From NCBI GenBank assembly GCA_900696465.1, contig CAADGE010000027.1, forward strand, positions 62,001 to 126,000: DNA of 64,000 bases. Reading direction: 5' to 3'. Position numbers and translations under genes: made by a program. The notes under the pieces are model-generated. The model was not told the origin of the DNA. It searched no databases and saw only the letters and a list, made by a program, of their open reading frames with translations. Source of the stretch: an uncultured Planctomycetota bacterium (lineage in GTDB: Bacteria > Planctomycetota > Phycisphaerae > UBA1845 > UTPLA1). Below are positions 50,061 to 64,000 of this stretch, in pieces; the first letter of the stretch is position 1, and every line of letters starts with the position of its first letter.

Positions 50061-51566
50061 CTAGGGGCTCGCATACTTCGCGAGAAACTCCTCGCGGCCC
50101 AGTTGCCGAACGCCGTCGTAAAGACTCTCGACGAATACTATATCCGCTTCCTGCAGAATCGGGTCCTCCGAGGAGATGGCTCCCGGCCATGCGGGGATGA
50201 CGCGTGCCGTATGCGTCGGCGGTGCTTCGGCGCGGCGGCTCCAGATCTTTATCAGCCCGAGATGGAGCTGTCGGGGAACGTCCGCGGCATAGACTGCCTT
50301 CCGGTCCCACCAGGATTCAAACGCCCGTGCGGAGGCCTGCGTGGTGCGCCCGTCATGTATCCAGGATCGAATCTGACGGCTGGTATTGTTCAGACCGACC
50401 ATCAGCAGCAGGGTCAGCGCGATAAGAGCGACGCGTCGATCAAGTCGCTCGAGCGCCCATGCCCCCCAGAGCAAAATGACGACAAAGGCGGGAAAGGTAA
50501 ATCGCTGGCAGTAATGGCTCGCGGCCTCGATGAAATTCACCTGTGGAGTTCCGAGCACCAGTGAGACCGGTCCAATGGCGACGGCCAGGCACATGAGATA
50601 GCTTGCCGCAAGCAGCCCGGAGCTTCGAGCCGCACGACAGAGCGTCCACAAGAGCAGCGCGTTGATCGGGATCGGCAGCCACCATGCCCAGCGGGCGGTG
50701 CCGTAGATCATCCAACCGGTGAACTGCGGCCACGCGCTGACCAGATATCGCGCGATCTCGAACGGGTCATACTGCCCGCCGCCATAGCCACCGACGAACT
50801 GGCCCATCATGGCCCGGCGATAGACAAAGTACGCCGCAGCCGGCAGGGCGAAGGCGCCCAGCAGCAAGGCCCGCCGGGGCAGGCGCACGCCCGGCAGCAC
50901 CAGCAGGAGCGCCGGCAGAGGAGCGTATATTTCCTTGAACAACGTGGCCGCGAAGTAGCAGGCGATCGCGCCGAGCAGGGGAGTCGGGCCGCCGCGGTCG
51001 AGGTAGCGGAGTGTCAATATAATGGCACCTATTGCCGGAATCAGACCCTCCAGATAGTGACGCGAGGCGGTGTAGCCGATCAGCGCGGCGGTATCTACGC
51101 TCAGCAGAAACACGAAGCCCGCGAGCACGGCCGTCGGCCAGGCGCACCATCGTCGCAGAAGCGCGACGATCATCATCGCCGCGATGCTCGCTGAAACGAT
51201 CGAATGAAGCCGGTAGCCGGGAATCCACCACTCAAAGATCGCCCAGTCCAGCTTGAGGGAGACGAGCAGCAGCGGCACGAAGTTGTTCGCGGAGACGTCG
51301 TAGCCGGTGAAGATGTCAATCAGGCCCCGCCCGTCGACATGAGCGAGGATGTCCACCTCGTCCGCCGTGAACCACGCCGGGATCAGCCGGTGGTAGCGGA
51401 TCAGGGCGGTCAGTAAAAACCAGACGAACAGCGCCGCAAAGATGCGAAAAGGGTGTCGGTCGAGAGCAGCCGACAGCGCGGCCAGTTGGAAGCGCTTCGA
51501 CCAAGGGCGCGCCGGATGCGCCGCCCCCGGTGCCTGTGAGATGGTCTGAGCCGGTGCATCGGTCAT
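50061..51566 (-). CDS. GT-C-type membrane glycosyltransferase-like protein
   Basis: A 501-residue polytopic protein with about 11-12 membrane segments. The first extracytoplasmic loop contains AWFTADEVDIL, an acidic pair in the place typical of GT-C glycosyltransferases that use lipid-phosphate sugar donors; ANNFVPLLLVSLKLDW and later YTASRHYLEGLIPAIGA fit the same fold. The C-terminal ~100 residues are soluble (AFESWWDRKAVYAADVPRQ...). It should act on the outer face of the cytoplasmic membrane. Its ATG (51566) overlaps the stop codon of the 4.3-kb gene upstream (ATGA), so the two are translationally coupled. The family call rests on pattern only. Confidence 0.72.
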   Translation of the reverse strand: MTDAPAQTISQAPGAAHPARPWSKRFQLAALSAALDRHPFRIFAALFVWFLLTALIRYHRLIPAWFTADEVDILAHVDGRGLIDIFTGYDVSANNFVPLLLVSLKLDWAIFEWWIPGYRLHSIVSASIAAMMIVALLRRWCAWPTAVLAGFVFLLSVDTAALIGYTASRHYLEGLIPAIGAIILTLRYLDRGGPTPLLGAIACYFAATLFKEIYAPLPALLLVLPGVRLPRRALLLGAFALPAAAYFVYRRAMMGQFVGGYGGGQYDPFEIARYLVSAWPQFTGWMIYGTARWAWWLPIPINALLLWTLCRAARSSGLLAASYLMCLAVAIGPVSLVLGTPQVNFIEAASHYCQRFTFPAFVVILLWGAWALERLDRRVALIALTLLLMVGLNNTSRQIRSWIHDGRTTQASARAFESWWDRKAVYAADVPRQLHLGLIKIWSRRAEAPPTHTARVIPAWPGAISSEDPILQEADIVFVESLYDGVRQLGREEFLAKYASP

Positions 51567-54500
51567 GGGCCGGGCTTGCCACGGCGAAAGTCGAGCAGGC
51601 CGCGATACATCGACAGCCGCAGGTCCACATAGGTCCATCGGTAAAGCCAGCGATGCAGCGGCTGCGGGGCGTAGCGGATTTTCTCTCCGACATAGAGCAG
51701 CATCGCTCCACCTGCGGTCAGCCATTTGAGCGCCTGCAGCCAGGGGTAATACTTCACCACCTTGCGCTCGAAGACGAAGCGGTTTGACAACTGAGGATGC
51801 TGTGCCAGGAAGTAGCCGAGCAGGTAGCCGTGGCGATACTTCTTGCGCCGATAGGGCAGATACGTTGGATAATACTCGTGCTGCACTTCGACGTCGGGCA
51901 TGAACACCATCCGCGTCGATTCGCCCAGCAGGCGGAAGCCGAACTCGATATCTTCCACGCCGGACGCGAGAAAGTTTTCATCGAAGCGCGTCTCGCCCAG
52001 CACGTCGCGCGGGATCACTACGCAGGCCGTATAGAAATAGTTGGGCGGGACATTTTCGGGATCGTCGAAGTTGTAGATGTTTACATCCTGGGATTGCCAC
52101 AGGAAACGCTCGAAGGGGTCGACCGAATCCTGCCACGGGGCGGCGATTCGCGCCAACAGCACCCGGCCGGGATGCCTGCGAGCCGTATTGAAGACGCGCG
52201 TCAGCATGTCGCGTCCGACGAGGATGTCATCGTCCAGCAGCAGGACCAGCGGCGCCCGGGCGACGTTGAGCCCCATGTTCCGCGTCGATGCGACGCTTGA
52301 TCGATCGCAGCGCAGCGTGGAAAGATTGGGGTACATTGCTTTCAGTTGATTCAGCACCTGCGGCGTGGCGTCGGACGAGTTGCTGTCGACGATGATGACC
52401 TCGTAGTACTCCGGCGGCACGTCCTGCGACATGAGCCGCTCCACCACGCGCGGAAGCTGATCGGCACGGTTGTGCGTCGGCATCACGATGGAAATCGCCG
52501 GCTTAGAAAGGCCCTGTAAAGGCGATTCCTTCGCCGACTCCGGCTCGGGAAATGCGATCCGCACGCCGCCCCACAGCCCCCAGCCAAGGTGTTCGTTGCC
52601 GTCGAATCGCAGCGTGATTAGACGCGGTGCGTCCGCGGCCCCGGTCACTGCGATGCGAAACGGCACCCAGGCACGATGCTCCTGCTGTGCCGGATGAAGT
52701 TCACCTCTCCATGCCTCCTGCCCGTCGATGTGTATGGTAAAGACCCCGACCGCTCGGTCGTCCCATGCTTCCTGCGGAATCGCGACGTGACCCTGTAGCT
52801 CCGCACCGGGCTCCACCGTCGTCTGATAAGTCACTTCGGCCGTGCGATAGACGAGTAGCGCCGGTTTAGACTCACCGCCCACGGAGGCGCCGGGATGGCG
52901 CGTGATGTGCCCCTCGATGGGCAGCGCTGCTTCAAGCCGCTTTTCCGCCTGTGGCAGTTCCTTGACGAGATCCACGAGCGCACGACCGCTGCTGCGCTCC
53001 CGCAGGGTCAGATCACGGCCGTGGCGGCCGTAGGTCCAGCCGTTGAAGAAGACCCAGCGATGCCTGCCGAACTTGCCGCGGCCCTCGCGACCGCGGACTG
53101 CCGCCGGCAGGTAGCGCAGCGATGCGAACATCGCCTTGATCGTATTCCACCGGTGCCAGAGCGGATTTCGCGAGATCGTCCCCACGCGCAGCATCGCCAG
53201 GTAATGCAGAAAAAGATCCATCCGCGTGCCGTACATGGCCCGCATCAGGGCGCCGTTGCGCATGGTGTAATAGTGCTGCGTCTTCGGGGTCTTCTTGGGA
53301 TCGAGGTCTTCGGTGAAGTGTTGCACCACCGCCTCGGGCACGTAGATGCACTTCCAGCCGTGCAGCCACATCCGCCAGGACAGGTCAATGTCCTCGAGGT
53401 ACATGAAGAAAGACCGTTCAAAACCGCCGCCGATCTGCCGCAGCGCCTTCGCACGGATCATCATACAGGCCCCGCTGCACCAGCTCGTCTCGCCGGTGAT
53501 CGGGTCGTAATACTTGGGATGCTCCCGCGGCGCCTGACGTGCTTCGGCGATGCCGATCTTTGGATCGCGCTCCAGTCGCTGGATCAGCAGCGTGATGGCA
53601 TCCGGCTCGATGACCGTGTCGAGATTGACGACAAAGTAATACTCGGCATCGCCGTAGCGGAAGGCGTGTTCGTAACCGCCGGTGAAACCCAGGTTCTGCC
53701 CGGTGGGGATCAGTTTCAGCGGCATATTGAGGTCGTTTGCCGCCGTCTGCATTTTCGCGAGCGTATTATCACGGGAGCCGTTGTCCGCGAAGACAAGCCG
53801 CAGCCGCTCGGCGGGATAATCCAGCCGCCGCAGACTGTCGAGAAATCCGTCGAGCCAGCGGGCCGAGTTGTACGACACCACCATGATGTCCACGCTCGGA
53901 AGCGTTTGCGCACGATACTTCGGTTCCAGCGCGCGGACGTGCGCCTCCAGCCCCGCCTGATATTCCCGAGCACGGCGGATTTCCTCGTGGAGAAGATTCA
54001 ATTCCGTCTGCACCTCGTCCATACCGCCCGGCGCCAGCACCTTGAGCAGTCGCAGCTTGTATTCCCGGCGAAGTTCCACCTCGCGCGACGGCGGCAGCAT
54101 CCGCTTTTGCAGGGCGAACTCCATCGCCACCGCCGCAGCTTCGAGCAGCGGCCGATCGAGACCCTCGAACGCCTGCGCCTGCCAGATCGTCTCCGTGCAG
54201 TAGGGCACGCACCATGCGCTGCGAGCAAACCCCAGCGGTGCCAGTGAAGTTCGATGGGCCAGGTCGTAGTCGATCAGCACCCAGGCATGATCCGGCGTTC
54301 GCAGGATATTGCGTCCGATGAAATCGCGCGTCGTCACGACCGTGCGCAGTGAATCCTTCCGCTGCATCACATTTCCTCGAAACGCCTCGCTGATGGCATC
54401 GGCTATGCTGTCGCACGCGAGCAGGTCACGCAATGCCACAGCGCAGGCCTGCAATTCCGCATTGAGCAGGTCCTCCTCCACGGGCCGCCCGAAACTCCAC

Positions 54501-55891
54501 ACCGTATCGATGATTTCCCGAATGCGCTGCGTCGCCTCCTCTGCGGAAAGCACCTCGCGGGCCACGAGCGCGTCGAGCGACTCGGCCTCGGCCACGAACT
54601 CCTCGACCAGCCAGAGACTCTGTGCATCACGCGACTGGCCGTAGAGCTTCGGCGGCCTGAACGAGTCCGCCTGTTCGTAGAGCGCGTAGGCACCAAGGAT
54701 TGCATCCGGAGCGAACGGGCCCGACAGCGGAATCTGTTTGACCGATGCGATCGGCCGGCCGTGCAGCTCGACGGTGTATCGTTCGGTGCGGCAATCCGGT
54801 CGAAAGTCCACGGCCTGCTCGATGCGGGTTACGCTCAGGGATGCGGCGTCGAGCAGGTTGATCTCGCCGGCATCCAGCAGTGCCTTCTCGGCGGCATTGC
54901 GTGCCGATTGCCTGCGCAACCGACGCATCGTCGCCGTGCCTCCTGCACGCTCCAGTACGAAGCCGAACGAAGGCACGAAGTACCGAGCGAGTTTCATCCT
55001 CGCCAGGTTGCGATAAATCGGGTCCAGCCGTGTCTCCAGATTCAGCGGCGCACCATCGACGCCGCTGTGCTCGTGCGCCGGCAGCCCTCGTTCCAGGAGA
55101 AAGGCATCTACCTCTTCGAGGTCCACCATGTGCTCGATCAGTTTGTAATCCGGGAAGCAGGCATAGGCGCGCGACAGCTCCAGCCCGGCCTCCTCAAAGA
55201 GCTGAAGATACTGATCCAGCGCCCAGGTTCGCGCTGCGGCGCCTTCCTCGCGATCCAGCAGGTAGGTGAAATCCTTCCGGCCGGTGTGATCATCCGGCGC
55301 GCCCAGCAGATATTTCAGCCCGGTGGCGTTTTCTATCCCGATGTACACACTGCCGCGCGGCGTCAGCGCGCTGCACACGCGGCGCAGGGCCAGCAGATGG
55401 CCGGCGCGATCGCCCGCTTCAAATCCCAGGTTCGTGTATTCCAGCACGCCGTTGAGAACGATGAGATCGAAAAAGTTCTCCCGCAGCGGAAACGTGCGCA
55501 GATCGCCGCGCAGCAGATGCACGCGGCAATCTTCCTGCCGGGCGATTTCCCGGAGAATCCGCAACCGCGCCAGCGTCAGGTCAAGGGCATAGACCTCGCC
55601 GCGCCGCGCCAGGGGGATCGTGAGTTGTCCCCAGCCGCTGCCGATATCGAGAAACCGGCCGCCTGGCGGAAGATCGAGAACGTCGAGCATGCGCGTCCGC
55701 GCCGGATCGAGAATGATGCGGTGCAGCCAGGGGAGCCGGGCGCCGAAGCGACGGTTGACCACGTCGCGCCACGGCTCACGCTTGAGTTCCGCGAGAATCT
55801 CTCGTTCTTCGGTGCTGCCGATGTCCGTGTACGAGCCCTCGCTCGCGCCCTGACAGAGAATATCCCCGTCCACGAGCTGGAAATCGTCCAT
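51563..55891 (-). CDS. Methyltransferase-kinase-GT2-beta-sandwich-GT2 multidomain protein
   Basis: About 1442 residues from ATG 55891 (GTG 55936 and TTG 55999 are possible). Domains in order: (1) SAM methyltransferase, residues about 65-215, with RFLDIGSGWGQ (80-88) and DLIVLNGVLEY; (2) protein-kinase-like domain, about 360-565, with beta3-type Lys (ASVKQIP, Lys385), RDFIGRN (Asp523, Asn528) and IDYD (541-544); (3) helical segment, about 620-665; (4) GT2, 667-955, with VDIMVVSYN, NLDT and MYLEDIDLSWR; (5) beta-sandwich, about 1012-1114; (6) GT2, 1133-1375, with ISIVMPTHNR, LLLDDDI and GVEDIEFGFR. The first three parts are arranged as in WbdD, which caps O9a polysaccharide. Overlaps the next gene by ATGA. 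Confidence 0.85.
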   Translation of the reverse strand: MDDFQLVDGDILCQGASEGSYTDIGSTEEREILAELKREPWRDVVNRRFGARLPWLHRIILDPARTRMLDVLDLPPGGRFLDIGSGWGQLTIPLARRGEVYALDLTLARLRILREIARQEDCRVHLLRGDLRTFPLRENFFDLIVLNGVLEYTNLGFEAGDRAGHLLALRRVCSALTPRGSVYIGIENATGLKYLLGAPDDHTGRKDFTYLLDREEGAAARTWALDQYLQLFEEAGLELSRAYACFPDYKLIEHMVDLEEVDAFLLERGLPAHEHSGVDGAPLNLETRLDPIYRNLARMKLARYFVPSFGFVLERAGGTATMRRLRRQSARNAAEKALLDAGEINLLDAASLSVTRIEQAVDFRPDCRTERYTVELHGRPIASVKQIPLSGPFAPDAILGAYALYEQADSFRPPKLYGQSRDAQSLWLVEEFVAEAESLDALVAREVLSAEEATQRIREIIDTVWSFGRPVEEDLLNAELQACAVALRDLLACDSIADAISEAFRGNVMQRKDSLRTVVTTRDFIGRNILRTPDHAWVLIDYDLAHRTSLAPLGFARSAWCVPYCTETIWQAQAFEGLDRPLLEAAAVAMEFALQKRMLPPSREVELRREYKLRLLKVLAPGGMDEVQTELNLLHEEIRRAREYQAGLEAHVRALEPKYRAQTLPSVDIMVVSYNSARWLDGFLDSLRRLDYPAERLRLVFADNGSRDNTLAKMQTAANDLNMPLKLIPTGQNLGFTGGYEHAFRYGDAEYYFVVNLDTVIEPDAITLLIQRLERDPKIGIAEARQAPREHPKYYDPITGETSWCSGACMMIRAKALRQIGGGFERSFFMYLEDIDLSWRMWLHGWKCIYVPEAVVQHFTEDLDPKKTPKTQHYYTMRNGALMRAMYGTRMDLFLHYLAMLRVGTISRNPLWHRWNTIKAMFASLRYLPAAVRGREGRGKFGRHRWVFFNGWTYGRHGRDLTLRERSSGRALVDLVKELPQAEKRLEAALPIEGHITRHPGASVGGESKPALLVYRTAEVTYQTTVEPGAELQGHVAIPQEAWDDRAVGVFTIHIDGQEAWRGELHPAQQEHRAWVPFRIAVTGAADAPRLITLRFDGNEHLGWGLWGGVRIAFPEPESAKESPLQGLSKPAISIVMPTHNRADQLPRVVERLMSQDVPPEYYEVIIVDSNSSDATPQVLNQLKAMYPNLSTLRCDRSSVASTRNMGLNVARAPLVLLLDDDILVGRDMLTRVFNTARRHPGRVLLARIAAPWQDSVDPFERFLWQSQDVNIYNFDDPENVPPNYFYTACVVIPRDVLGETRFDENFLASGVEDIEFGFRLLGESTRMVFMPDVEVQHEYYPTYLPYRRKKYRHGYLLGYFLAQHPQLSNRFVFERKVVKYYPWLQALKWLTAGGAMLLYVGEKIRYAPQPLHRWLYRWTYVDLRLSMYRGLLDFRRGKPGP

Positions 55892-56110
55892 GCTCGAAAG
55901 GGCGTCGGTCAAGCGATGATCTTGCTGCAGGGTCACGCGGGCTGGTTCCCGAACCGTCCGACGGCGCGCGTCGCCGAAGACCGCGCCGATCGGAGGCAAG
56001 TCCGCGCGAGGATCGAACCTTCGCGCCTCCGGCGAGAGAAATCATGATCCGCGAATCACGGCACAGGGTCAAGTCTCGCGGCCGCCGGACGACGCATCCG
56101 ACCGGCGCAA

Positions 56111-57445
56111 TCAAAGAGAAACCGCGAATAATCGACGCGCGAATACAACAATCAAGACTGCTTCGATGACGAACACGGTCGCCGTCGCCACGGCAGCGCC
56201 GTAGATTCCCAGCGGCGGTATCAGTGCGAGATTAAGCACGAAGTTGCCCCCAACGGCGATGAAGATCAGTCCGGTGTACACGCCCGGCATGCCGCCCTGC
56301 AGAAAGATGCCCAGAAACGGACGATAACCCGAGTTCAGCAGGATGCCGGCCATCAGGATCGCGAACACCAGCCAGCTTGCACCCATGCCGTGGTCCGCAC
56401 CGCAGAGCTTCAGGAGCAGGGGATAGCCGGCGACCGCGACGAGTGTGACAGCGGTCATCAGTGCATACATCACCCGCTTGACCTTACGCGCCGCTTCGAC
56501 GATTCGCACGCGATCATGCTCCGCGAAGGCCCGTCCGAAGATCGGGTCGAGATTTCTTCGCACGACGATCGGTATCTGGCAGAATCCCTCGGCGAGAATC
56601 GCGGCAAAACTGTAGATGCCGACGGCTGCGTCGTTCGTGAAGTAGCCAAGCATAAGCACGTCCACGCGGGTGTTCATCTCACTCAGCAATCCGCTCATAA
56701 AGCCGCGCAGGCCGAACGAGGCATGCTCGCGATACCATCGTTCCCCGCTGGCGGGCCTACGCAGCGGAACCACGAACCAGCGTACGTAAATGATGGTGAT
56801 CAGGAACAACGCCAGTTCCGACGTGGTCAGGGAGAGCGCCAGCCATGCATGCGGCCAGCCCGCGGCCAGGATACCCGTGATCGATGCCAGGATGAAGACG
56901 AATCGCGCGGCTTGCAGCACGGCAAAGGCGCGCATGAAGCGCAGCCCGTTGAGCGCGCTGAGCAGAATCTTGTTCAGCGAGAAGAAGATGAGCCCCGGCG
57001 CCGCCAGGGCCAGCCCGGTCGCAACGCCGGTACTCGAGAGAAACGTTCCTACGCTATCGCTGAACAGATACGCCGCGGCGCAGACAATGGCCGAGAGGAT
57101 CGCGCCGAGGAGCAGTCCGGCCGTCGTGATTCGCCCGCACAGGTCGCGCTCGTCCGAATGGTAGGAAAGCTGCTTGAGTACGGAAAGATGCACACCGCCG
57201 ACGGCGATCTGCGAAAGAATGATGTAAATCGCGAAGACCTGATTGAAGACGCCCAGCGCCTCGGCCCCGCGCCATCGGGCGATCATCGCGTTCATCAGAA
57301 TGCCGGAGACGCCCAGCACGCCGACGCTGGCCAGGTTCCACAGCACTTCGGCACTGAACCGGTTGCGCAGCGACAGCGCCGAACGCAGCCCGGAGCGCAG
57401 GCCGGATCGATCGGCTCCGTCCGCGACGTCCGACTCAGGTCGCAT
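56111..57445 (-). CDS. Polysaccharide flippase (MOP superfamily, Wzx-like)
   Basis: A 444-residue membrane protein with about 12-14 membrane segments. ATG 57445 is chosen because it overlaps the end of the amidotransferase gene by 11 bases and gives a start just before the first membrane segment (NRFSAEVLWNLASVGVLGVSGILMNAMIARW). The charged TM7 region FGLRGFMSGLLSEMNTRVDVLMLGYF is typical of Wzx-type lipid-linked oligosaccharide flippases. It would move lipid-linked sugar units made by the adjacent glycosyltransferases across the cytoplasmic membrane. It is 219 bases upstream of the multidomain gene on the same strand. Confidence 0.85.
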   Translation of the reverse strand: MRPESDVADGADRSGLRSGLRSALSLRNRFSAEVLWNLASVGVLGVSGILMNAMIARWRGAEALGVFNQVFAIYIILSQIAVGGVHLSVLKQLSYHSDERDLCGRITTAGLLLGAILSAIVCAAAYLFSDSVGTFLSSTGVATGLALAAPGLIFFSLNKILLSALNGLRFMRAFAVLQAARFVFILASITGILAAGWPHAWLALSLTTSELALFLITIIYVRWFVVPLRRPASGERWYREHASFGLRGFMSGLLSEMNTRVDVLMLGYFTNDAAVGIYSFAAILAEGFCQIPIVVRRNLDPIFGRAFAEHDRVRIVEAARKVKRVMYALMTAVTLVAVAGYPLLLKLCGADHGMGASWLVFAILMAGILLNSGYRPFLGIFLQGGMPGVYTGLIFIAVGGNFVLNLALIPPLGIYGAAVATATVFVIEAVLIVVFARRLFAVSL

Positions 57446-59507
57446 AGTGTCTGGGAATCTCCGCGATGCGTTGAACGATCGGCTCGAACTGATCCCCCAG
57501 CCCGATGGTGTCAAGATACCACTGGATCGACTCCCAGCGCGGCTCGTTTTCCTTGCGGGCCATCTCGATGGCCTGAGCGCGCGTGAGTAACCCCTCGCGG
57601 ATCTGATTGCTGCGGAAGGTGTCGTTCTCCGAGAAACCCGCAACCATGCAATAGATGTAGTTGTAGAACGACGCCGTGCCGTCGCCGATCCGCCAGGTGG
57701 AATCCGTATCCGTCGCCGTCTCCCAGTCATAGGCGTCGATGATTGTCCGCGTGATCGTATCTTCCTCCCACCGGATGAAACGATACAGGTTCAGATAGTC
57801 GCGCCGGATGACATAGAAGCAGGCATACGCCCAAAGCGTGTCGAGCGTGGAAGCGTTCAGATAGGCCGGGTTTCGCAAATAGGCCATGCCGTAGTACGTC
57901 GCCAGTTTGATCTTCTCCTTCAGTCCCAGCGTATAGACATGATCCGGATCATCCGGCCGCCCGCTGCGCACGCCGCAGAAGCCGGTCTTGAACTCCGTCT
58001 TCTCCAGCATGTTTTCGCCGAGGATGATGACCGGCAGGCCGATCTGCGCCTTGAGCTGATTCGCATGGTGGAAATACTGCTTGTCACCGGCCATGAACAG
58101 CGGAATGATTCCCAGGTCCGGCTTCTTCAGCCAGGCCCGTACATTCGACCGGATGTATCGCCGTTTCTTCTCGATGTCCGCAGAGACGAGGATGTGCTCC
58201 ACGCCGAGCTTGCCGCAGATGCGGGAGATGTTTCGCCGCGCCAGGTCCGTCACCATGCCCCAGTCGTAGGTGAACGCGATCGGATTCATGCCCAGTTCAG
58301 TCTTCACGAAATGCAGACAGTAGGTGCTGTCGCGACCACCGGAGAGCCCCACAAGGCAATCGGGGCGGCCATCCGTTCGGCGCAGTGGATGAAGTATTTC
58401 CCGAAGCGCATCGACGCCGCGCACCTCGTTCGGCCGGTAGTGACGGCAGTAGTTGCACACGCCGTCTGAGTCGAAGGCGATCATCGGCATCGTTTCCGGC
58501 AGGATGCACTTCCTGCATCGTCGCAGCCGCTCAATCGCCTCAAAGGGTATCCGCGGCAGACGATCCGCGCGGGGCATGAATAACGTCGGTGCTGTTGCTG
58601 CTTGCCGCGGTGCGACGCGCGCCTCGTGTCCGTTTTCACCGTTAAACGACGCGGGGATGATGTCCACGACGCGCCGCGCTGACGCAGCCCGCGGCAATAC
58701 GCTCGACGATGGTGGATCACCGATCAGCTCGAATGACTCTATCGACAGATCGCGAAGATTCACAACGCAGCCGTGGCCCGGGCGAAGTTGAACGACCCGG
58801 CAAGCGCCGAGCAACGGTTCGAGGTATCGCCGGCGCAGCAACTGAAGAAGGATGTATTCCTCCGAGGCGAAGACGATTGCGTCTCCCCGCGGTGGCGTGC
58901 CCAGGTACAGCGAACCTGTATTCGTCGCCAGCACCATCGCGTCCAGATCGTCGAACACAACGGCGATCGACGCGGCACCGCGAATTTCGTCGAATGTACG
59001 ACGGACGGCTCCGATCAGATCAAGTCCGTCGGCCAGGTGCTTGCGGATAAGCCCGACGATTACTTCGCTGTCGACACGCCCTCTCCGCTCCAGATCAGGA
59101 TTGGCCTGCCACAGGGCTTCGTCGTTGACCACGATACCGTTGTGGATGCCCACGGCCCCGCGGTGGATCACCGGCTGGTTGTTCAGACGGTTGCCCTGCT
59201 CGCCGGTGGTCACCAGTCTCGAGTGTCCGATTACGGTCACCGGTTGCCGCAGCGGCTCCCGCCGCGATCGAACGCCGTTGCCAGCCATTTCCCGAAACAG
59301 CCCGCGATACTCCGGCCGGCGCACCAGTGCGGACGCCCGGACCGCCTCTTTGAAGACACGAATTTCCCCGCCGCTGACCAGCGCGATGCCGGCCGCCTCC
59401 TTGCCGCGCGATTCAGAAAGCCGGAACAGGTCATTCACCGCCGACTGCAGCGCGGTCGGTGAAAACGTTGCGTCTTCTCGAATGCTGATTCCGAAGATGC
59501 CGCACAT
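57435..59507 (-). CDS. Class-II glutaminase fused to WbpG/PseA-type sugar amidotransferase
   Basis: A 690-residue fusion. Start ATG 59507 puts Cys at position 2 (MCGIFGISI), as needed for an N-terminal-nucleophile glutaminase; HSRLVTTGEQGN and VGIHNGIVVND are class-II glutaminase segments. Around residues 329-356 a four-Cys element (CRKCILPETMP...GVCNYC) precedes a PP-loop synthetase with GLSGGRDSTYCLHF near residue 385; VIILGENMLEKTEFKTG and DTDSTWRIGDGTASFYNYIYC are typical of N-acetyl sugar amidotransferases. It should adenylate an N-acetyl sugar and place glutamine-derived ammonia on it, giving an acetamidino sugar. Pseudomonas WbpG obtains ammonia from a separate class-I HisH-like protein; here the glutaminase is of another class and in cis. 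Confidence 0.87.
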   Translation of the reverse strand: MCGIFGISIREDATFSPTALQSAVNDLFRLSESRGKEAAGIALVSGGEIRVFKEAVRASALVRRPEYRGLFREMAGNGVRSRREPLRQPVTVIGHSRLVTTGEQGNRLNNQPVIHRGAVGIHNGIVVNDEALWQANPDLERRGRVDSEVIVGLIRKHLADGLDLIGAVRRTFDEIRGAASIAVVFDDLDAMVLATNTGSLYLGTPPRGDAIVFASEEYILLQLLRRRYLEPLLGACRVVQLRPGHGCVVNLRDLSIESFELIGDPPSSSVLPRAASARRVVDIIPASFNGENGHEARVAPRQAATAPTLFMPRADRLPRIPFEAIERLRRCRKCILPETMPMIAFDSDGVCNYCRHYRPNEVRGVDALREILHPLRRTDGRPDCLVGLSGGRDSTYCLHFVKTELGMNPIAFTYDWGMVTDLARRNISRICGKLGVEHILVSADIEKKRRYIRSNVRAWLKKPDLGIIPLFMAGDKQYFHHANQLKAQIGLPVIILGENMLEKTEFKTGFCGVRSGRPDDPDHVYTLGLKEKIKLATYYGMAYLRNPAYLNASTLDTLWAYACFYVIRRDYLNLYRFIRWEEDTITRTIIDAYDWETATDTDSTWRIGDGTASFYNYIYCMVAGFSENDTFRSNQIREGLLTRAQAIEMARKENEPRWESIQWYLDTIGLGDQFEPIVQRIAEIPRHYAT

Positions 59508-59627
59508 GGAGCCGTAGGTCCGTTCGTAATCGATCGTCTGCGTATGAAAGTTTGCCAAGCCGACCGTACCGCTCGACTGCGGTCTGAGCGGGCTAGAACC
59601 ATAACTGCGGCCGGCCGGAGTAGAATC

Positions 59628-62624
59628 CTATGCGCCCGCAGGTCTTTCGGAAAGTCCGGCACGTCGTCGGCGCGACCACCTCATGACGAAGTAGAAATGC
59701 CCCAGCGCAGCGGCCGTGCCGAGCGCCATCGCCGGCAGGAAGTAGGGCGGTCGATAACGAAACTCGACGACGTGCCTACCCTTCGGTACCGCGACCGCCT
59801 TCAGGTTGTAATTCGCACGGAAGATGCCCGTCTCCTTCCCGTCCACCCACGCCCGCCAACCGTGGTCGTAGTTGTCGCTCACAACAAGAAAGCAGTCGCG
59901 GTCTGCCTCGATCTCAAAGCGCTGGTCCGAGCTTCGTAGTTCGAGATTGGTCACGCGGCCGTCCACCATGGCCTCGGCGCGCGGCGCACCCGCGATCGGC
60001 CGCATGTCCTCCTCCGCCCAGATGTACGACCGCAGATCGTCCATCGCCTGCGACAAAGCTGCGAGAATCTCTTCCGGTGTTCCGTACTTCAGTCCGCCCG
60101 CCAGCCATGCCCGCCCGTAGGACTTTGTGTTCTCCAGAACGACCAGTTCGCCATCGTAGATGACTTTGTATTTGTCGAGCCGCCCCGGAGCGTCGGCATG
60201 GATTGTGAACGTCAGATCGCCGGGATGCTCCTTTCCGTTGATCGAGAGCGTGCCTTTCTTCAGGATGTCCACATCCTTCGTGCACAGCACGTCCAGCACG
60301 CCGTCGAGATCGTCCCGCGCCGTCAGTTCGACTGCGTAGTGCCGTCCCTGCTGCGCCTCAAACTCGCCGAGATCAAACGTCAGCCGACGAACTTCCTCCT
60401 GCCATTGACCATTAGACCATTGCCGCTGCGTGCCATCCGTCAGATCCAGAATGCGTAGTTCCGCCGGTGAGTCGCCTGTCCACTTGCCATGCGGTATTCG
60501 AATTGCCGCCCAGCCGACGACCATCGCGCGTTCGGCTACGAATGTCTGCCGCAGCGACTGGCCCGGCGCCAGCTCGATGATGTGATTCCACTCCGGCTGC
60601 TTGACGAGGTAATCCCGCGAGAGGTCATCGAGCTTCGTCAGGGAATCCATGGCCACATAGCGTATGCCCAGCATCTCGACGACCGGGCTCCCCAGGCGCG
60701 TCTGTACGCTGCTGTCAAAGAGAAACTGTGTCGGGTGCTCGCGCAGGGCCTCCTCGTTGAGAAGCCGATAGAGTCCCTTGGTCCGCGCGTTGAAGAATCC
60801 TCGCCCGCTGAAGTTGTTAAGGTCGTAGAAGAGCGGGATGTTTGCCAGAAAGGTCGCATCCATTCCCAGCATCTTGTCGTCACCGATATGCTCCTGCAGA
60901 AAACGCACCGCCGGCGTGCGCAGGTAGAACGCGGTCCGGGCGATCGTCGGGTTCCAGCCGACGGCGATCCGCGGGTCAGGCGGGCGTTGGGTATCCGGCT
61001 GAAGCACCGTCGAGGCCTGACATCGCGACAGCGGGTACCAGCTTTTATCCATCATCTGTAAGTCGGCAAAGAGCATCAGGGCGACGCATGTCTTGATCCA
61101 CCATGTCGTCTCTCGTCGCAGGTAAAGTGTCAGTCCCACGATCGCGGAGAGACCGATCACGCCGGCCTGCCAGTGCAGATGCGCCTGTTGGAAGGCCGAC
61201 AAATCGGCATCGCCCATCGACAGTCCGATCCCCCATCCGCCGAAACCCACCAGCGCGAGCAGAAGCAGCGCGCCACCGCGCCGCACCCACATCGGCAATC
61301 GGCGCTGCGACAGATCGTTCAGCGCGTATGCCAGCAGCACAGACAGGACGAACGCCAGCAGGAGCTTCTGCCGCGTGTTGGGATTGCTGTTGAAGATCGG
61401 CACGTGCTGGATGAAGCGGCCGAGCACATCACCGACGTTGTAGAGCAGCACGATCAGCCAGGCCGCGAAGAGCAGATAGAACGCGCGAATCCACGACAGT
61501 CGAAACGTTGCCAGACTCAGCAGCGTTACTGCAAGCGGGAGGATGCCGATGTAGAACGTGTATTCGTACCAGGTGCCGATTGCGCCGCCGCGCTGGTAGG
61601 GCGGCCCGTAAAAGAACGGATACACCCATGCGATCAGCCCTTCGATCGGCAGCCGCCACTGCCAGTAGCGCTCGCGATAGGTCCAGTCAAAAGCGGAGAA
61701 GAAGTCCGCCGTCGCCAGGAGCGCCGGTGCTGACATCAATAGCCCGACGAGATACATACCCGCGAACGCCGCGAGGAGCTTGAGACGCCGCCCGTGCTGT
61801 CCGAGGATGCGGAAGACCGTATACGCCACCAGGAAATACAGACAATAAACCGTGCCCGCCGGAAAGCCGGAGAGTATGACCGTCCAGAGGAGAACCGGCA
61901 TCGCCGCCGCCCAGGCCGCGCTGCGATGCTGAATGACGCGCTCGGTACCATAGGCCAGGATCGGCAGCATCATCAGTTGCAGATGCATCGGGAAGATCAG
62001 GTCCTGCACTGCGTACTTGCAGTAGCAGAAGACAATCGCTCCGCAGAGGCCCGGCCAACGGCCGATCCCGATGATCCGCGCATATTTATAGAAGAAAAGA
62101 CCGCCCAGCAGGTGCCGCAGCAGGAAATACGCCGTCATTCCCACCGGTGTCTTGAGGATGAGCACCGCGAGCAGCAGTGGCAGGACCATCAGTTCATGTT
62201 TGATGACAAAGAAAAACGGCGTGCCGTTCTGAATCTTGTCGCACCAGTATGGTATCTCGCCGCGCTTCAGGCATTGCCGCACGTATTCCACCTGCGGCAC
62301 GAACATATCGACCTGATCGGTGAGGACCGGATTGCTGCCCCCGGCGATCTCCGGCGGCCGATGATCCGCCCACGGCTTGTGAAAGAAGATCAGGTCGGAC
62401 GGGGCGATCACTTCCGCGCGGAAGAACACGTCCGGGTAGGCCGCGACCGTCATGAGAACCAGCAGCAGCAGGACGAGAAGCGTGTCATGGCGACGGCACC
62501 AGTCGCCGATGCGGGAGCGTGGCGCGACGGCGCGGTTCGACGCAGGAGATTCCTGTGCGGAACCTGCGATGGGTTCGTGCTGCGGCGAGGTGGATTCGCT
62601 GGCTTCAGTCGGCAAAACGGTCAC
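59628..62624 (-). CDS. YfhO family membrane protein
   Basis: About 998 residues. Twelve or more membrane segments occupy residues 45-490. The first external loop has FHKPWADHRPPEI and later DKIQNGTPFFF, in the positions conserved in YfhO proteins, which are GT-C-fold-related. A large extracytoplasmic C-terminal region follows, with the YfhO end domain FLVVSDNYDHGWRAWVDGKETGIFRANYNLKAVAVPKG and RYRPPYF, and a last membrane helix. YfhO is implicated in modification of cell-surface glycans. GTG 62624 is listed; TTG 62708 is also in frame, neither with a good ribosome binding site. First gene of the minus-strand glycan locus. Confidence 0.78.
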   Translation of the reverse strand: MTVLPTEASESTSPQHEPIAGSAQESPASNRAVAPRSRIGDWCRRHDTLLVLLLLVLMTVAAYPDVFFRAEVIAPSDLIFFHKPWADHRPPEIAGGSNPVLTDQVDMFVPQVEYVRQCLKRGEIPYWCDKIQNGTPFFFVIKHELMVLPLLLAVLILKTPVGMTAYFLLRHLLGGLFFYKYARIIGIGRWPGLCGAIVFCYCKYAVQDLIFPMHLQLMMLPILAYGTERVIQHRSAAWAAAMPVLLWTVILSGFPAGTVYCLYFLVAYTVFRILGQHGRRLKLLAAFAGMYLVGLLMSAPALLATADFFSAFDWTYRERYWQWRLPIEGLIAWVYPFFYGPPYQRGGAIGTWYEYTFYIGILPLAVTLLSLATFRLSWIRAFYLLFAAWLIVLLYNVGDVLGRFIQHVPIFNSNPNTRQKLLLAFVLSVLLAYALNDLSQRRLPMWVRRGGALLLLALVGFGGWGIGLSMGDADLSAFQQAHLHWQAGVIGLSAIVGLTLYLRRETTWWIKTCVALMLFADLQMMDKSWYPLSRCQASTVLQPDTQRPPDPRIAVGWNPTIARTAFYLRTPAVRFLQEHIGDDKMLGMDATFLANIPLFYDLNNFSGRGFFNARTKGLYRLLNEEALREHPTQFLFDSSVQTRLGSPVVEMLGIRYVAMDSLTKLDDLSRDYLVKQPEWNHIIELAPGQSLRQTFVAERAMVVGWAAIRIPHGKWTGDSPAELRILDLTDGTQRQWSNGQWQEEVRRLTFDLGEFEAQQGRHYAVELTARDDLDGVLDVLCTKDVDILKKGTLSINGKEHPGDLTFTIHADAPGRLDKYKVIYDGELVVLENTKSYGRAWLAGGLKYGTPEEILAALSQAMDDLRSYIWAEEDMRPIAGAPRAEAMVDGRVTNLELRSSDQRFEIEADRDCFLVVSDNYDHGWRAWVDGKETGIFRANYNLKAVAVPKGRHVVEFRYRPPYFLPAMALGTAAALGHFYFVMRWSRRRRAGLSERPAGA

Positions 62625-62696
62625 GCACGCTGGTTGACGGATCGCCGCTCTCGGATGAGAATTCGTACCGGCAGCGACGCCGCGGGAACGACGACT

Positions 62697-62721
62697 CGAT
62701 CGCGCCAAGCTAACGCGATCG
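62697..62721. promoter_or_regulatory. 8-bp inverted repeat in divergent control region
   Basis: CGATCGCG (62697-62704) and CGCGATCG (62714-62721) with a nine-base loop, between the glycan locus (minus) and a methyltransferase gene (plus). It could be an operator or hairpin. CGATCG is common in this genome, so chance is not excluded. Confidence 0.3.
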
Positions 62722-63356: not shown

Positions 63357-64000
63357 TCAGGCAGATCGCCGCGCGCCCCGCGGGCGGCGGCGCGTGACAC
63401 CGAACATCACCAGTCCCAGCAGGGCGGCCGTGCCCGGCTCCGGCGTGAAGGCGCAGCGCATGAAGCGCACATCGTTGAGCGTGATCTTGTCAGCCACGAG
63501 CTGCGTGCAGCCCTGGGCGTTGTTGATGTTGATCTCACCACCGCGATTGCCGACGGTCCAGAAGGCCACGCCATTGAGGACGGTATTGTTGAAGTTAAAG
63601 TGTTGGGCGTTGTCCTGCCGGTTCGAGAAGAACATCACGCTCGTCAGGCCGATGCCGCCGTTGCCGACCAGGATGTTTCCGTTGGAGATGAGCATCTTCG
63701 CGCTGTTGGGCACGCGAAAGATCGCCGCCGCATCGGCCGGGCCGTTGATCACCAGGTTCGAATTTTCCAGCAGAAAGTCATTGCCCCCGGTCAGGATGTC
63801 GATCACGTTGAGCCCCGGTGACAAGTTGATCGTGGTGTGCGTGCTGATCTTGCCGCCGCTGCCGGCCAGATTCAGCGTGCTCGTCGAGGCCAGCGTCGGA
63901 ATGGTCGCGCGAGCGTCCGCGATCTCCGCCAGCAGCGGCGCGAAGGAATGGTTCGGCGTGATGCCCGCCAGATTGGGCGAATCCATCCGTGTCGATTGCA
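63357..64000 (-). CDS. PEP-CTERM protein, choice-of-anchor A-like (cut by window edge)
   Basis: The frame is open at base 64000, so the start is outside the window; at least 214 residues are present. The Asn/Gly-rich body (ISTHTTINLSPGLNVIDILTGGNDF, NLVINGPADAAAIFRVPNSA, NFNNTVLNGVAFW) has the style of the choice-of-anchor A or ice-binding-like beta-solenoid surface domains. The C terminus is a PEP-CTERM signal: FTPEPGTAALLGLVMFGVTRRRPRGARR. It should be exported and processed by exosortase. Stop at 63357. The transcription unit upstream cannot be seen. Confidence 0.8.
   Translation of the reverse strand, partial: QSTRMDSPNLAGITPNHSFAPLLAEIADARATIPTLASTSTLNLAGSGGKISTHTTINLSPGLNVIDILTGGNDFLLENSNLVINGPADAAAIFRVPNSAKMLISNGNILVGNGGIGLTSVMFFSNRQDNAQHFNFNNTVLNGVAFWTVGNRGGEININNAQGCTQLVADKITLNDVRFMRCAFTPEPGTAALLGLVMFGVTRRRPRGARRSA

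Follow-up and report, generated by a model that had tools for sequence, protein, structure and literature searches.

A planctomycetal fusion of methyltransferase, kinase-like and two GT2 modules as a candidate polymerase-terminator resembling Klebsiella O7 ORF6

In Klebsiella O7, a single polypeptide chain, ORF6, both polymerises the glycan and caps it with methylphosphate (PMC11231755). Its two GT2 modules polymerise together with ORF7, and in the published assay a mimic of the repeat unit was phosphorylated and partly methylated, while the D441A variant gave no reaction; the necessity of the CBM present in ORF6 was left unsettled by the authors (PMC11231755). WbbB of Klebsiella O12 is another polymerase-terminator made as one chain, and the capping systems treated in the same study export their products via Wzm/Wzt (PMC11231755). 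Since ORF6 has been published with this layout, extension and capping by one chain is already known as a principle. New in the locus analyzed here and its relatives are the occurrence of other N-terminal modules on the GT2-GT2 core within the same bacterial family, a conserved Wzx-type operon in which no Wzm/Wzt was seen, and the shortness of the helix.

The fusion protein P0001 is encoded on the minus strand at positions 51563..55891 of the window, i.e., the whole 64,000-nucleotide stretch of DNA that was analyzed. Its open reading frame begins with an ATG at 55891 and runs for 1442 amino acids with zero internal stops. The start is uncertain because the frame stays open upstream as far as a TTG at 55999 and because a full-length relative in another genome of the same genus (G016) starts about 20 amino acids earlier. 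From the N-terminus, the modules are a methyltransferase, a kinase-like part, a short helix, a GT2 module, a beta-rich linker and a second GT2 module; this order, proposed in the preliminary description, is borne out by Pfam and NCBIfam matches for the methyltransferase and both GT2 modules within one uninterrupted frame. The same description had asked whether the fusion recurs and had named an assembly artefact joining neighboring genes as one of the findings that would overturn it. The whole architecture does recur in G016, as a protein of 1479 amino acids with 58-59% identity, and its neighbors are those of P0001 (the YfhO and amidotransferase counterparts were recognized by reading only). 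A full-length copy of this degree of divergence in the same gene order rules out an assembly or annotation artefact, in favor of which nothing was found.

The class I SAM-dependent methyltransferase module (residues ~31-319; 54935..55801, minus strand) contains the SAM loop DIGSGWG at residues 82-88 and is matched by Methyltransf_25 (residues 81-154, 2.3e-12) and Methyltransf_31 (77-188) of Pfam. BLAST relates it to two proteins of the O7 type, one from Citrobacter (33% identity over 236 amino acids, E 4e-21) and WP_024686765 from P. asturiensis (31% over 277 amino acids, E 8e-18), and an hhalign comparison with the O7-type methyltransferase gave 99.4%. Judged from these significant sequence relationships, the P0001 methyltransferase belongs with the O7-type proteins. 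It is likewise related to the methyltransferases of two proteins from the same phylum (G348, E 2.6e-21; G403, 4e-19), in which a kinase also follows in the same chain; their kinase, in contrast to that of P0001, is a recognizable APH domain, and Pfam finds no GT match in them.

These two proteins come from a set of 8 genomes of the phylum in which the N-terminal part of P0001 finds a match. The genome of P0001, with its kinase-like domain in the chain, is itself among the 8, while G348 and G403 carry a Pfam-recognized APH domain in the same chain as the methyltransferase. An APH gene adjoins the methyltransferase in G116 (1.3e-15) and G301 (0.00017, just below the cut-off), and a gene with a kinase motif, found by reading, adjoins it in G352. 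As a counterexample to this association, no kinase accompanies the methyltransferase of G262 in the stretch that was read.

The kinase-like module of P0001 (residues ~356-585; 54137..54826, minus strand) was delimited by profile comparison with PDB, motif spacing and local conservation; it comprises K385, a presumed hinge at residues ~414-467, D523/N528 and D541. Sequence inspection placed K385, D523, N528 and D541 exactly where the preliminary description had reported them intact, and all four are kept in G016. The domain itself found no family match, with zero Pfam families at E <= 10 and zero NCBIfam families at E <= 1. A profile built from P0001 and G016 retrieved 91 PDB sequences at E <= 10 (best E 0.0019), and 58 of the 60 listed were kinases, mainly protein kinases. 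The alignments lay mostly over residues 414-467, and the listed matches left the D523-D541 segment uncovered, save for one non-kinase row. A small-set control search placed kinases in 14 of its 20 top rows, with a non-kinase gene of the window as the best row and none of the rows significant. An alignment of four kinase members also matched kinases in PDB, a result that we discount because two of its members are Pfam-recognized APH domains. Profile-profile comparison by hhalign, with two-sequence profiles, gave 0.2-2.4% against O7-type, APH and WbdD kinases, values that were not significant and did not stand out from the 0.1-0.6% of non-kinase controls; this test has little power, as other kinase pairs fail it too, e.g., APH against the WbdD kinase (0.3%). 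Single-sequence AF2 models of residues 1-680 and of the kinase part were unusable (pLDDT 36.8 and 39.9).

Further indications come from the D/N/D motif. The spacing from D523 to N528 (+5) and D541 (+18) is equal in P. asturiensis and in WbdD of E. coli HS (D350/N355/D368); the corresponding WbdD residues are named as D351, N356 and D369 in the published account (PMC3482155). A search pattern set after the sequence was seen (D-x4-N-hydrophobic-x9/10-two hydrophobics-D) had 0 occurrences in 17,964 control residues and arose in 35 of 20,000 shuffled versions of the region. P0001, G016, P. asturiensis and WbdD all contain this pattern, but the kinase or kinase-like domains of G348, G403, G352 and Citrobacter lack it. 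Between P0001 and G016, the motif falls into the best-conserved part of the domain (23 of 33 positions identical in a window chosen on the motif vs 76 of 197 elsewhere; p 0.001). Taken from sequence, a kinase-type fold with intact K/D/N/D residues is probable, and the part resembles a further cryptic sugar kinase, one missed by the family libraries that were searched. The missing family match would also suit an inactive domain that binds or presents the chain end and leaves capping to the methyltransferase alone, as in the methyl-capped chains of Klebsiella O5 and E. coli O8; methyl-only terminators of the WbdD type have been described. We consider such an arrangement improbable, given that all four residues are kept in G016 and that the last three fall into the best-conserved part of the domain.

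The preliminary description had modeled the protein on WbdD of E. coli O9a. What holds of this comparison is the equal order of methyltransferase, kinase and helical segment (a coiled coil in WbdD) together with the D/N/D spacing; WbdD is, however, not the closest relative. It lacks GT modules, its kinase is recognized by Pfam (APH 2.6e-11) whereas that of P0001 is not, and the similarity between the two proteins is insignificant, both by BLAST against the E. coli HS protein (best E 0.35, for 33% of 42 amino acids over the presumed hinge) and by hhalign of the kinase parts (2.4%). On the BLAST, profile and Pfam tests, we rejected P0001 as a WbdD member. That it is nevertheless a true member of this family with GTs attached, as the shared order, the shared spacing and the weak hinge match might suggest, is very unlikely, as its methyltransferase groups with other proteins.

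The comparison with O7 ORF6 can be made through its look-alike from P. asturiensis. WP_024686765 (1457 amino acids) has the ORF6 layout, and its gene immediately follows those for an ABC permease and ATPase. The landmarks published for ORF6 recur in it at identical or nearly identical positions: G91/G93, D443 (D441 in ORF6), DXDD and NXD. P0001 shares with it an N-terminal methyltransferase that is significantly related, a kinase-like domain unseen by family searches with equal D/N/D spacing, a helical spacer and two GT2 modules. ORF6 possesses a CBM-like domain before its helix, whereas P0001 has none there and instead carries a beta-rich piece between its GT2 modules that hhalign finds unrelated to the CBM; an extended coiled coil in ORF6 contrasts with the short helix of P0001; the GT2 modules of P0001 and P. 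asturiensis are only 21-28% identical; and the O7 cluster contains Wzm/Wzt where a Wzx-type gene lies beside P0001. Klebsiella O12 WbbB, by its description, likewise unites a terminator and two GT modules for polymerisation in a single polypeptide, but its terminator is a Kdo transferase rather than a methyltransferase-kinase.

About 40 amino acids separate the kinase-like part of P0001 from its helix (residues 624-659; 53915..54022, minus strand), which by heptad count spans about five heptads in ~36 amino acids. The first GT2 module (residues ~661-900; 53192..53911, minus strand), which begins at ~656 according to NCBIfam, carries DNGS at 703, NLD at 756 and ED at 833, and the second (residues ~1129-1360; 51812..52507, minus strand) carries DSNS at 1169, DDD at 1220 and ED at 1313; both thus have DXD-type (NLD, DDD) and ED motifs. 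The Pfam match to Glycos_transf_2 lies above the cut-off (1.3e-41, best stretch 1134-1250), and Glyco_trans_2_3 (best stretch 802-877) and Glyco_tranf_2_3 (1131-1353) were also found. The predicted beta-rich linker joining the two modules (residues ~1001-1128; 52508..52891, minus strand) matches zero Pfam families at E <= 10. It is conserved in G016 and in the relative from G008 and missing from that of G001, and its WGLWG segment is conserved in three relatives. The preliminary description took it for a beta-sandwich, a putative fold here, that may serve as a carbohydrate-binding element.

The genes around P0001 lie on the same strand. Upstream are a Wzx-type flippase (56111..57730 as the longest ORF, the true start being probably later; Polysacc_synt 4.4e-12), a class II glutamine amidotransferase domain joined to a WbuX-like sugar amidotransferase (57435..59558; GATase_6 2.4e-10; TIGR03573 4e-38, below its cut-off) and a YfhO-type membrane protein (59628..62708; Pfam YfhO 9.6e-22). 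Downstream, a membrane protein whose longest ORF (50061..51725) overlaps the fusion has no Pfam match itself and is GT39/PMT-like only via its G016 counterpart (PMT E 0.0073, below the cut-off). No Wzm/Wzt was detected in the operon by Pfam or, by reading, in the 20 kb upstream. The single Wzt_C match in the genome, from a search blind to Wzt proteins that lack this domain, is on a different contig, and G015, a genome without the fusion, has a counterpart of it. No Wzy_C was found among the operon genes scanned; the 8 matches in the genome are all on other contigs.

By analogy with the assayed ORF6 (PMC11231755), the earlier proposal that one polypeptide both extends and caps a glycan is plausible, and we put the probability that P0001 is a cytoplasmic polymerase-terminator working like Klebsiella O7 ORF6 at roughly one in two. 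The two C-terminal GT2 modules would extend a lipid-linked glycan, with repeated rather than single sugar transfer, at the membrane, and the non-reducing end would reach the N-terminal head across the short helical spacer, a possible ruler. There the kinase module would phosphorylate the sugar at the chain end and the methyltransferase would methylate this phosphate; with the terminal phosphate methylated, chain growth would stop. Once finished, the chain would probably cross the membrane through the operon's Wzx-type flippase, and the YfhO and GT39-like membrane proteins might then decorate it on the outer side. A rival reading, clearly less probable, is that the two GT2 modules each contribute a single sugar to a lipid-linked oligosaccharide whose length is fixed, and that the head adds methylphosphate (or separate phosphate and methyl groups) to this unit; Wzx would flip the unit, which would be used as it is, e.g., as a short glycan, with no polymerisation in the cytoplasm. 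The short helix, the Wzx-type flippase and membrane proteins in a conserved operon, and the fact that no Wzm/Wzt was seen would fit such an assembler, but the closest characterized layout polymerises (PMC11231755) and the operon genes scanned include no Wzy_C. The short helix and the lack of a Wzm/Wzt match in the operon and upstream also weigh against the O7-like reading. If P0001 is indeed a polymerase-terminator, the O7 plan extends to a distant bacterium, and the Wzx context makes the tie of the cap to ABC export testable. The helices of the orthologues P0001 and G016 differ, by reading, by ~14 residues, so that nature itself provides a pair in which the dependence of chain length on the helix could be examined.

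In relatives of the same bacterial family, the GT2-GT2 core lies under other N-terminal modules. Two genomes have a methyltransferase-kinase head. In a third (G008), the head is apparently GT-B/Capsule_synth-like and has a long helix (Capsule_synth E 0.0022 and BFO_1060 7.6e-07, both below curated cut-offs, with nothing useful from PDB), and a fourth has a methyltransferase with an O7-type CBM. We tentatively consider, as a possibility that is on balance doubtful, that capping heads can be exchanged like cassettes on a conserved polymerase core, with at least one capped chain leaving via a Wzx flippase. Evolution would then have kept the sugar-adding core and swapped the chain-ending head, and end-capping would be separable from export by ABC transporters.

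We also searched for relatives on mobile elements and in E. coli. The G348 protein had no match on plasmids, the Citrobacter gene had none in E. coli DNA, and no kinase relative was found on the viral contigs scanned. With the Citrobacter protein as query, the plasmid search returned only this protein and that of P. asturiensis. For P0001, scans of viral contigs gave three matches, all within the methyltransferase part, the phage search gave two partial matches (query residues 21-269), and on plasmids a single partial match was found, to the first 640 amino acids of the query.

The ORF for the fusion protein P0001 (51563-55891, minus strand; 1442 aa) is real, the Pfam database recognizes in it an N-terminal methyltransferase and two GT2 modules, and the residues named in the preliminary description sit at the positions it gave. 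When P0001 was searched against the genomes of its family, 4 of 17 matched at E ≤ 1e-30; full-length matches were found in its own genome and in G016, a member of the same genus, while G008 and G001 from the same family matched over the C-terminal part only. No match at this threshold was present in G015, the third genome of the genus. With residues 1-997 as the query, 4 of the 114 genomes of the order were recovered (E ≤ 1e-20), and the first GT2 region found matches in 4 of 397 genomes of the class, themselves drawn from a larger group (E ≤ 1e-25). Both searches returned the same four genomes as the family search, and misses are possible in both because at most 5-7 candidates per genome were scored. 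The fusion recurs as a second full-length copy in G016, whose protein (1479 aa) is 58-59% identical to P0001 from end to end. The two genomes have a gene order in common: a small opposite-strand methyltransferase, YfhO, an amidotransferase, a Wzx-type protein, the fusion and a GT39/PMT-like membrane protein. Of the G016 genes, the GT39/PMT-like, Wzx-type and fusion genes were run through Pfam and the other neighbors were matched by reading. Since a full-length relative with the same neighbors in the same order exists, an assembly artefact joining adjacent genes is excluded.

According to the published account (PMC11231755), ORF6 of Klebsiella O7 consists of a methyltransferase, an unannotated 223-aa domain, a CBM, a coiled coil and two GT2 modules. 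The 223-aa domain was demonstrated to be a kinase, inactive in the D441A variant; the repeat is polymerized by ORF6 together with a partner enzyme, and ORF6 caps the chain with methylphosphate. O12 WbbB is another single protein that extends and caps its glycan (PMC11231755). The proposal that one polypeptide performs both tasks was therefore already in print for these two proteins, and for P0001, which is largely understood by analogy, it would hold on that footing. Among the open-access papers listed in literature searches, judged on titles and abstract openings, there is no report of P0001 or of a capped chain exported by Wzx. We compared O7 ORF6 through a stand-in, a P. asturiensis plasmid protein (WP_024686765) carrying its published landmarks; the methyltransferase of P0001 is related to that of this protein and to that of a Citrobacter plasmid protein, a relative devoid of GT modules that adjoins ABC transporter genes.

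We estimate at roughly 80% the probability that the middle region of P0001 adopts a kinase fold, and activity of this putative enzyme is predicted a little less firmly. Pfam recognizes the kinase of WbdD, the cap enzyme of E. coli O9a (APH, 2.6e-11); it returned no family at E ≤ 10 for the P0001 region, a single weak and irrelevant match for that of G016, and nothing for the corresponding part of either of two O7-type proteins. Searched alone against 392 genomes of the phylum, a sample that seems to lack G016, the region found only itself. A two-sequence profile of P0001 and G016 matched 91 PDB sequences at E ≤ 10; protein kinases accounted for 58 of the best 60 (best E 0.0019), the other two being a capsid protein and an aminopeptidase. 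These entries are redundant, representing about a dozen different kinases, and just seven sequences reach E 0.03. Among the best 60 of the 91, the kinase alignments fall mostly on residues 414-467, which we read as a candidate kinase hinge, and none covers the D523-D541 segment. The presumed hinge was aligned to WbdD residues 286-330 by BLAST as well as by hhalign, significantly by neither. The presumed catalytic residues D523, N528 and D541 are spaced at +5 and +18, identical to E. coli HS WbdD (D350, N355, D368) and to P. asturiensis (D443); the Citrobacter relative has Glu at the third position. Within the domain, conservation over 33 residues peaks in the window that begins at residue 521; a window chosen on the motif has 23/33 identities vs. 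76/197 elsewhere (p 0.001). In four hhalign kinase pairs, the P0001 region scored 0.2-2.4%, no better than non-kinase controls (0.1-0.6%); the test is weak, as APH vs. WbdD also fails (0.3%). AF2 run without an alignment gave no usable P0001 model.

The helix following this region comprises about 36 aa in heptads. Its G016 counterpart (approximately residues 640-695; L018:8676-13115, minus strand) scored longer, but the run contains a proline; by reading, it looks to be made of 14-residue (two-heptad) repeats, with about one more than in P0001.

Toward its C-terminus, P0001 shares 53% identity with G008 over 838 aa and 56-58% with G001, the latter in two pieces. The G008 protein differs in its head, which Capsule_synth matches weakly, and in a long helix-rich segment seen by reading. 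The methyltransferases of G001 and P0001 gave no BLAST match at E 0.01, whereas that of G001 matches P. asturiensis (1.4e-6); G001 also carries a domain resembling the P. asturiensis CBM (31% over 135 aa), lacks the piece between the GT2 modules found in P0001, and has an ABC ATPase gene nearby. For the capped systems that it treats, the introduction of PMC11231755 names terminated chains as the only transporter substrates. In contrast to O7-type loci, the P0001 operon possesses a Wzx-type gene in place of an ABC transporter; none was found among the operon genes scanned or, by reading, over the next 20 kb upstream. A search of five genomes found a single Wzt_C match in each; that of the P0001 genome lies on another contig, and G015 has one although it lacks the fusion. 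Exchange of heads on a common core combined with Wzx export is the boldest reading, a tentative one that we regard as rather unlikely. Separately, a Nitrospinota contig (L013:8001-11044, plus strand) encodes a GT2 that shares 39% identity with the first GT2 module of P0001 and is joined to what reads as a radical-SAM-like stretch; a second GT2 is the next, separate gene.

The N-terminal 640 aa of P0001 found matches in 8 of 392 phylum genomes, its own included (E ≤ 1e-12). An APH kinase lies in the same chain as the methyltransferase in G348 and G403, and an APH gene adjoins it in G116 and G301, scoring just under the cut-off in the latter. The 971-aa G352 protein (L032:5269-8181, plus strand) has a methyltransferase of this same family at the C-terminus and an N-terminal region with no clear family match; the next gene overlaps it and has a kinase motif by reading, TPR-like matches below cut-off, no Pfam APH match, and an hhalign value of 43% to the G348/G403 kinase. 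On the G375 contig (L093:616-3582, plus strand), a methyltransferase that reads as O7-type comes directly after the Wzm and Wzt genes, and the contig ends within it. No kinase was seen in the stretch read around the G262 methyltransferase. Hence, in six of seven judgeable genomes (G348, G403, G116, G301, G352 and that of P0001), a kinase or kinase-like domain accompanies the methyltransferase.

WbuX-type enzymes usually depend on separate HisH/HisF-like partners. The amidotransferase at 57435-59558 (minus strand; TIGR03573 4e-38, under the family cut-off) is a class II (GATase_6) glutaminase domain fused to a WbuX-like N-acetyl sugar amidotransferase, and its G016 counterpart (L018:14601-16661) starts, by reading, with the same glutaminase motif. 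The protein encoded at 63357-63998 (minus strand) ends, by reading, in a PEP-CTERM-like sorting signal.
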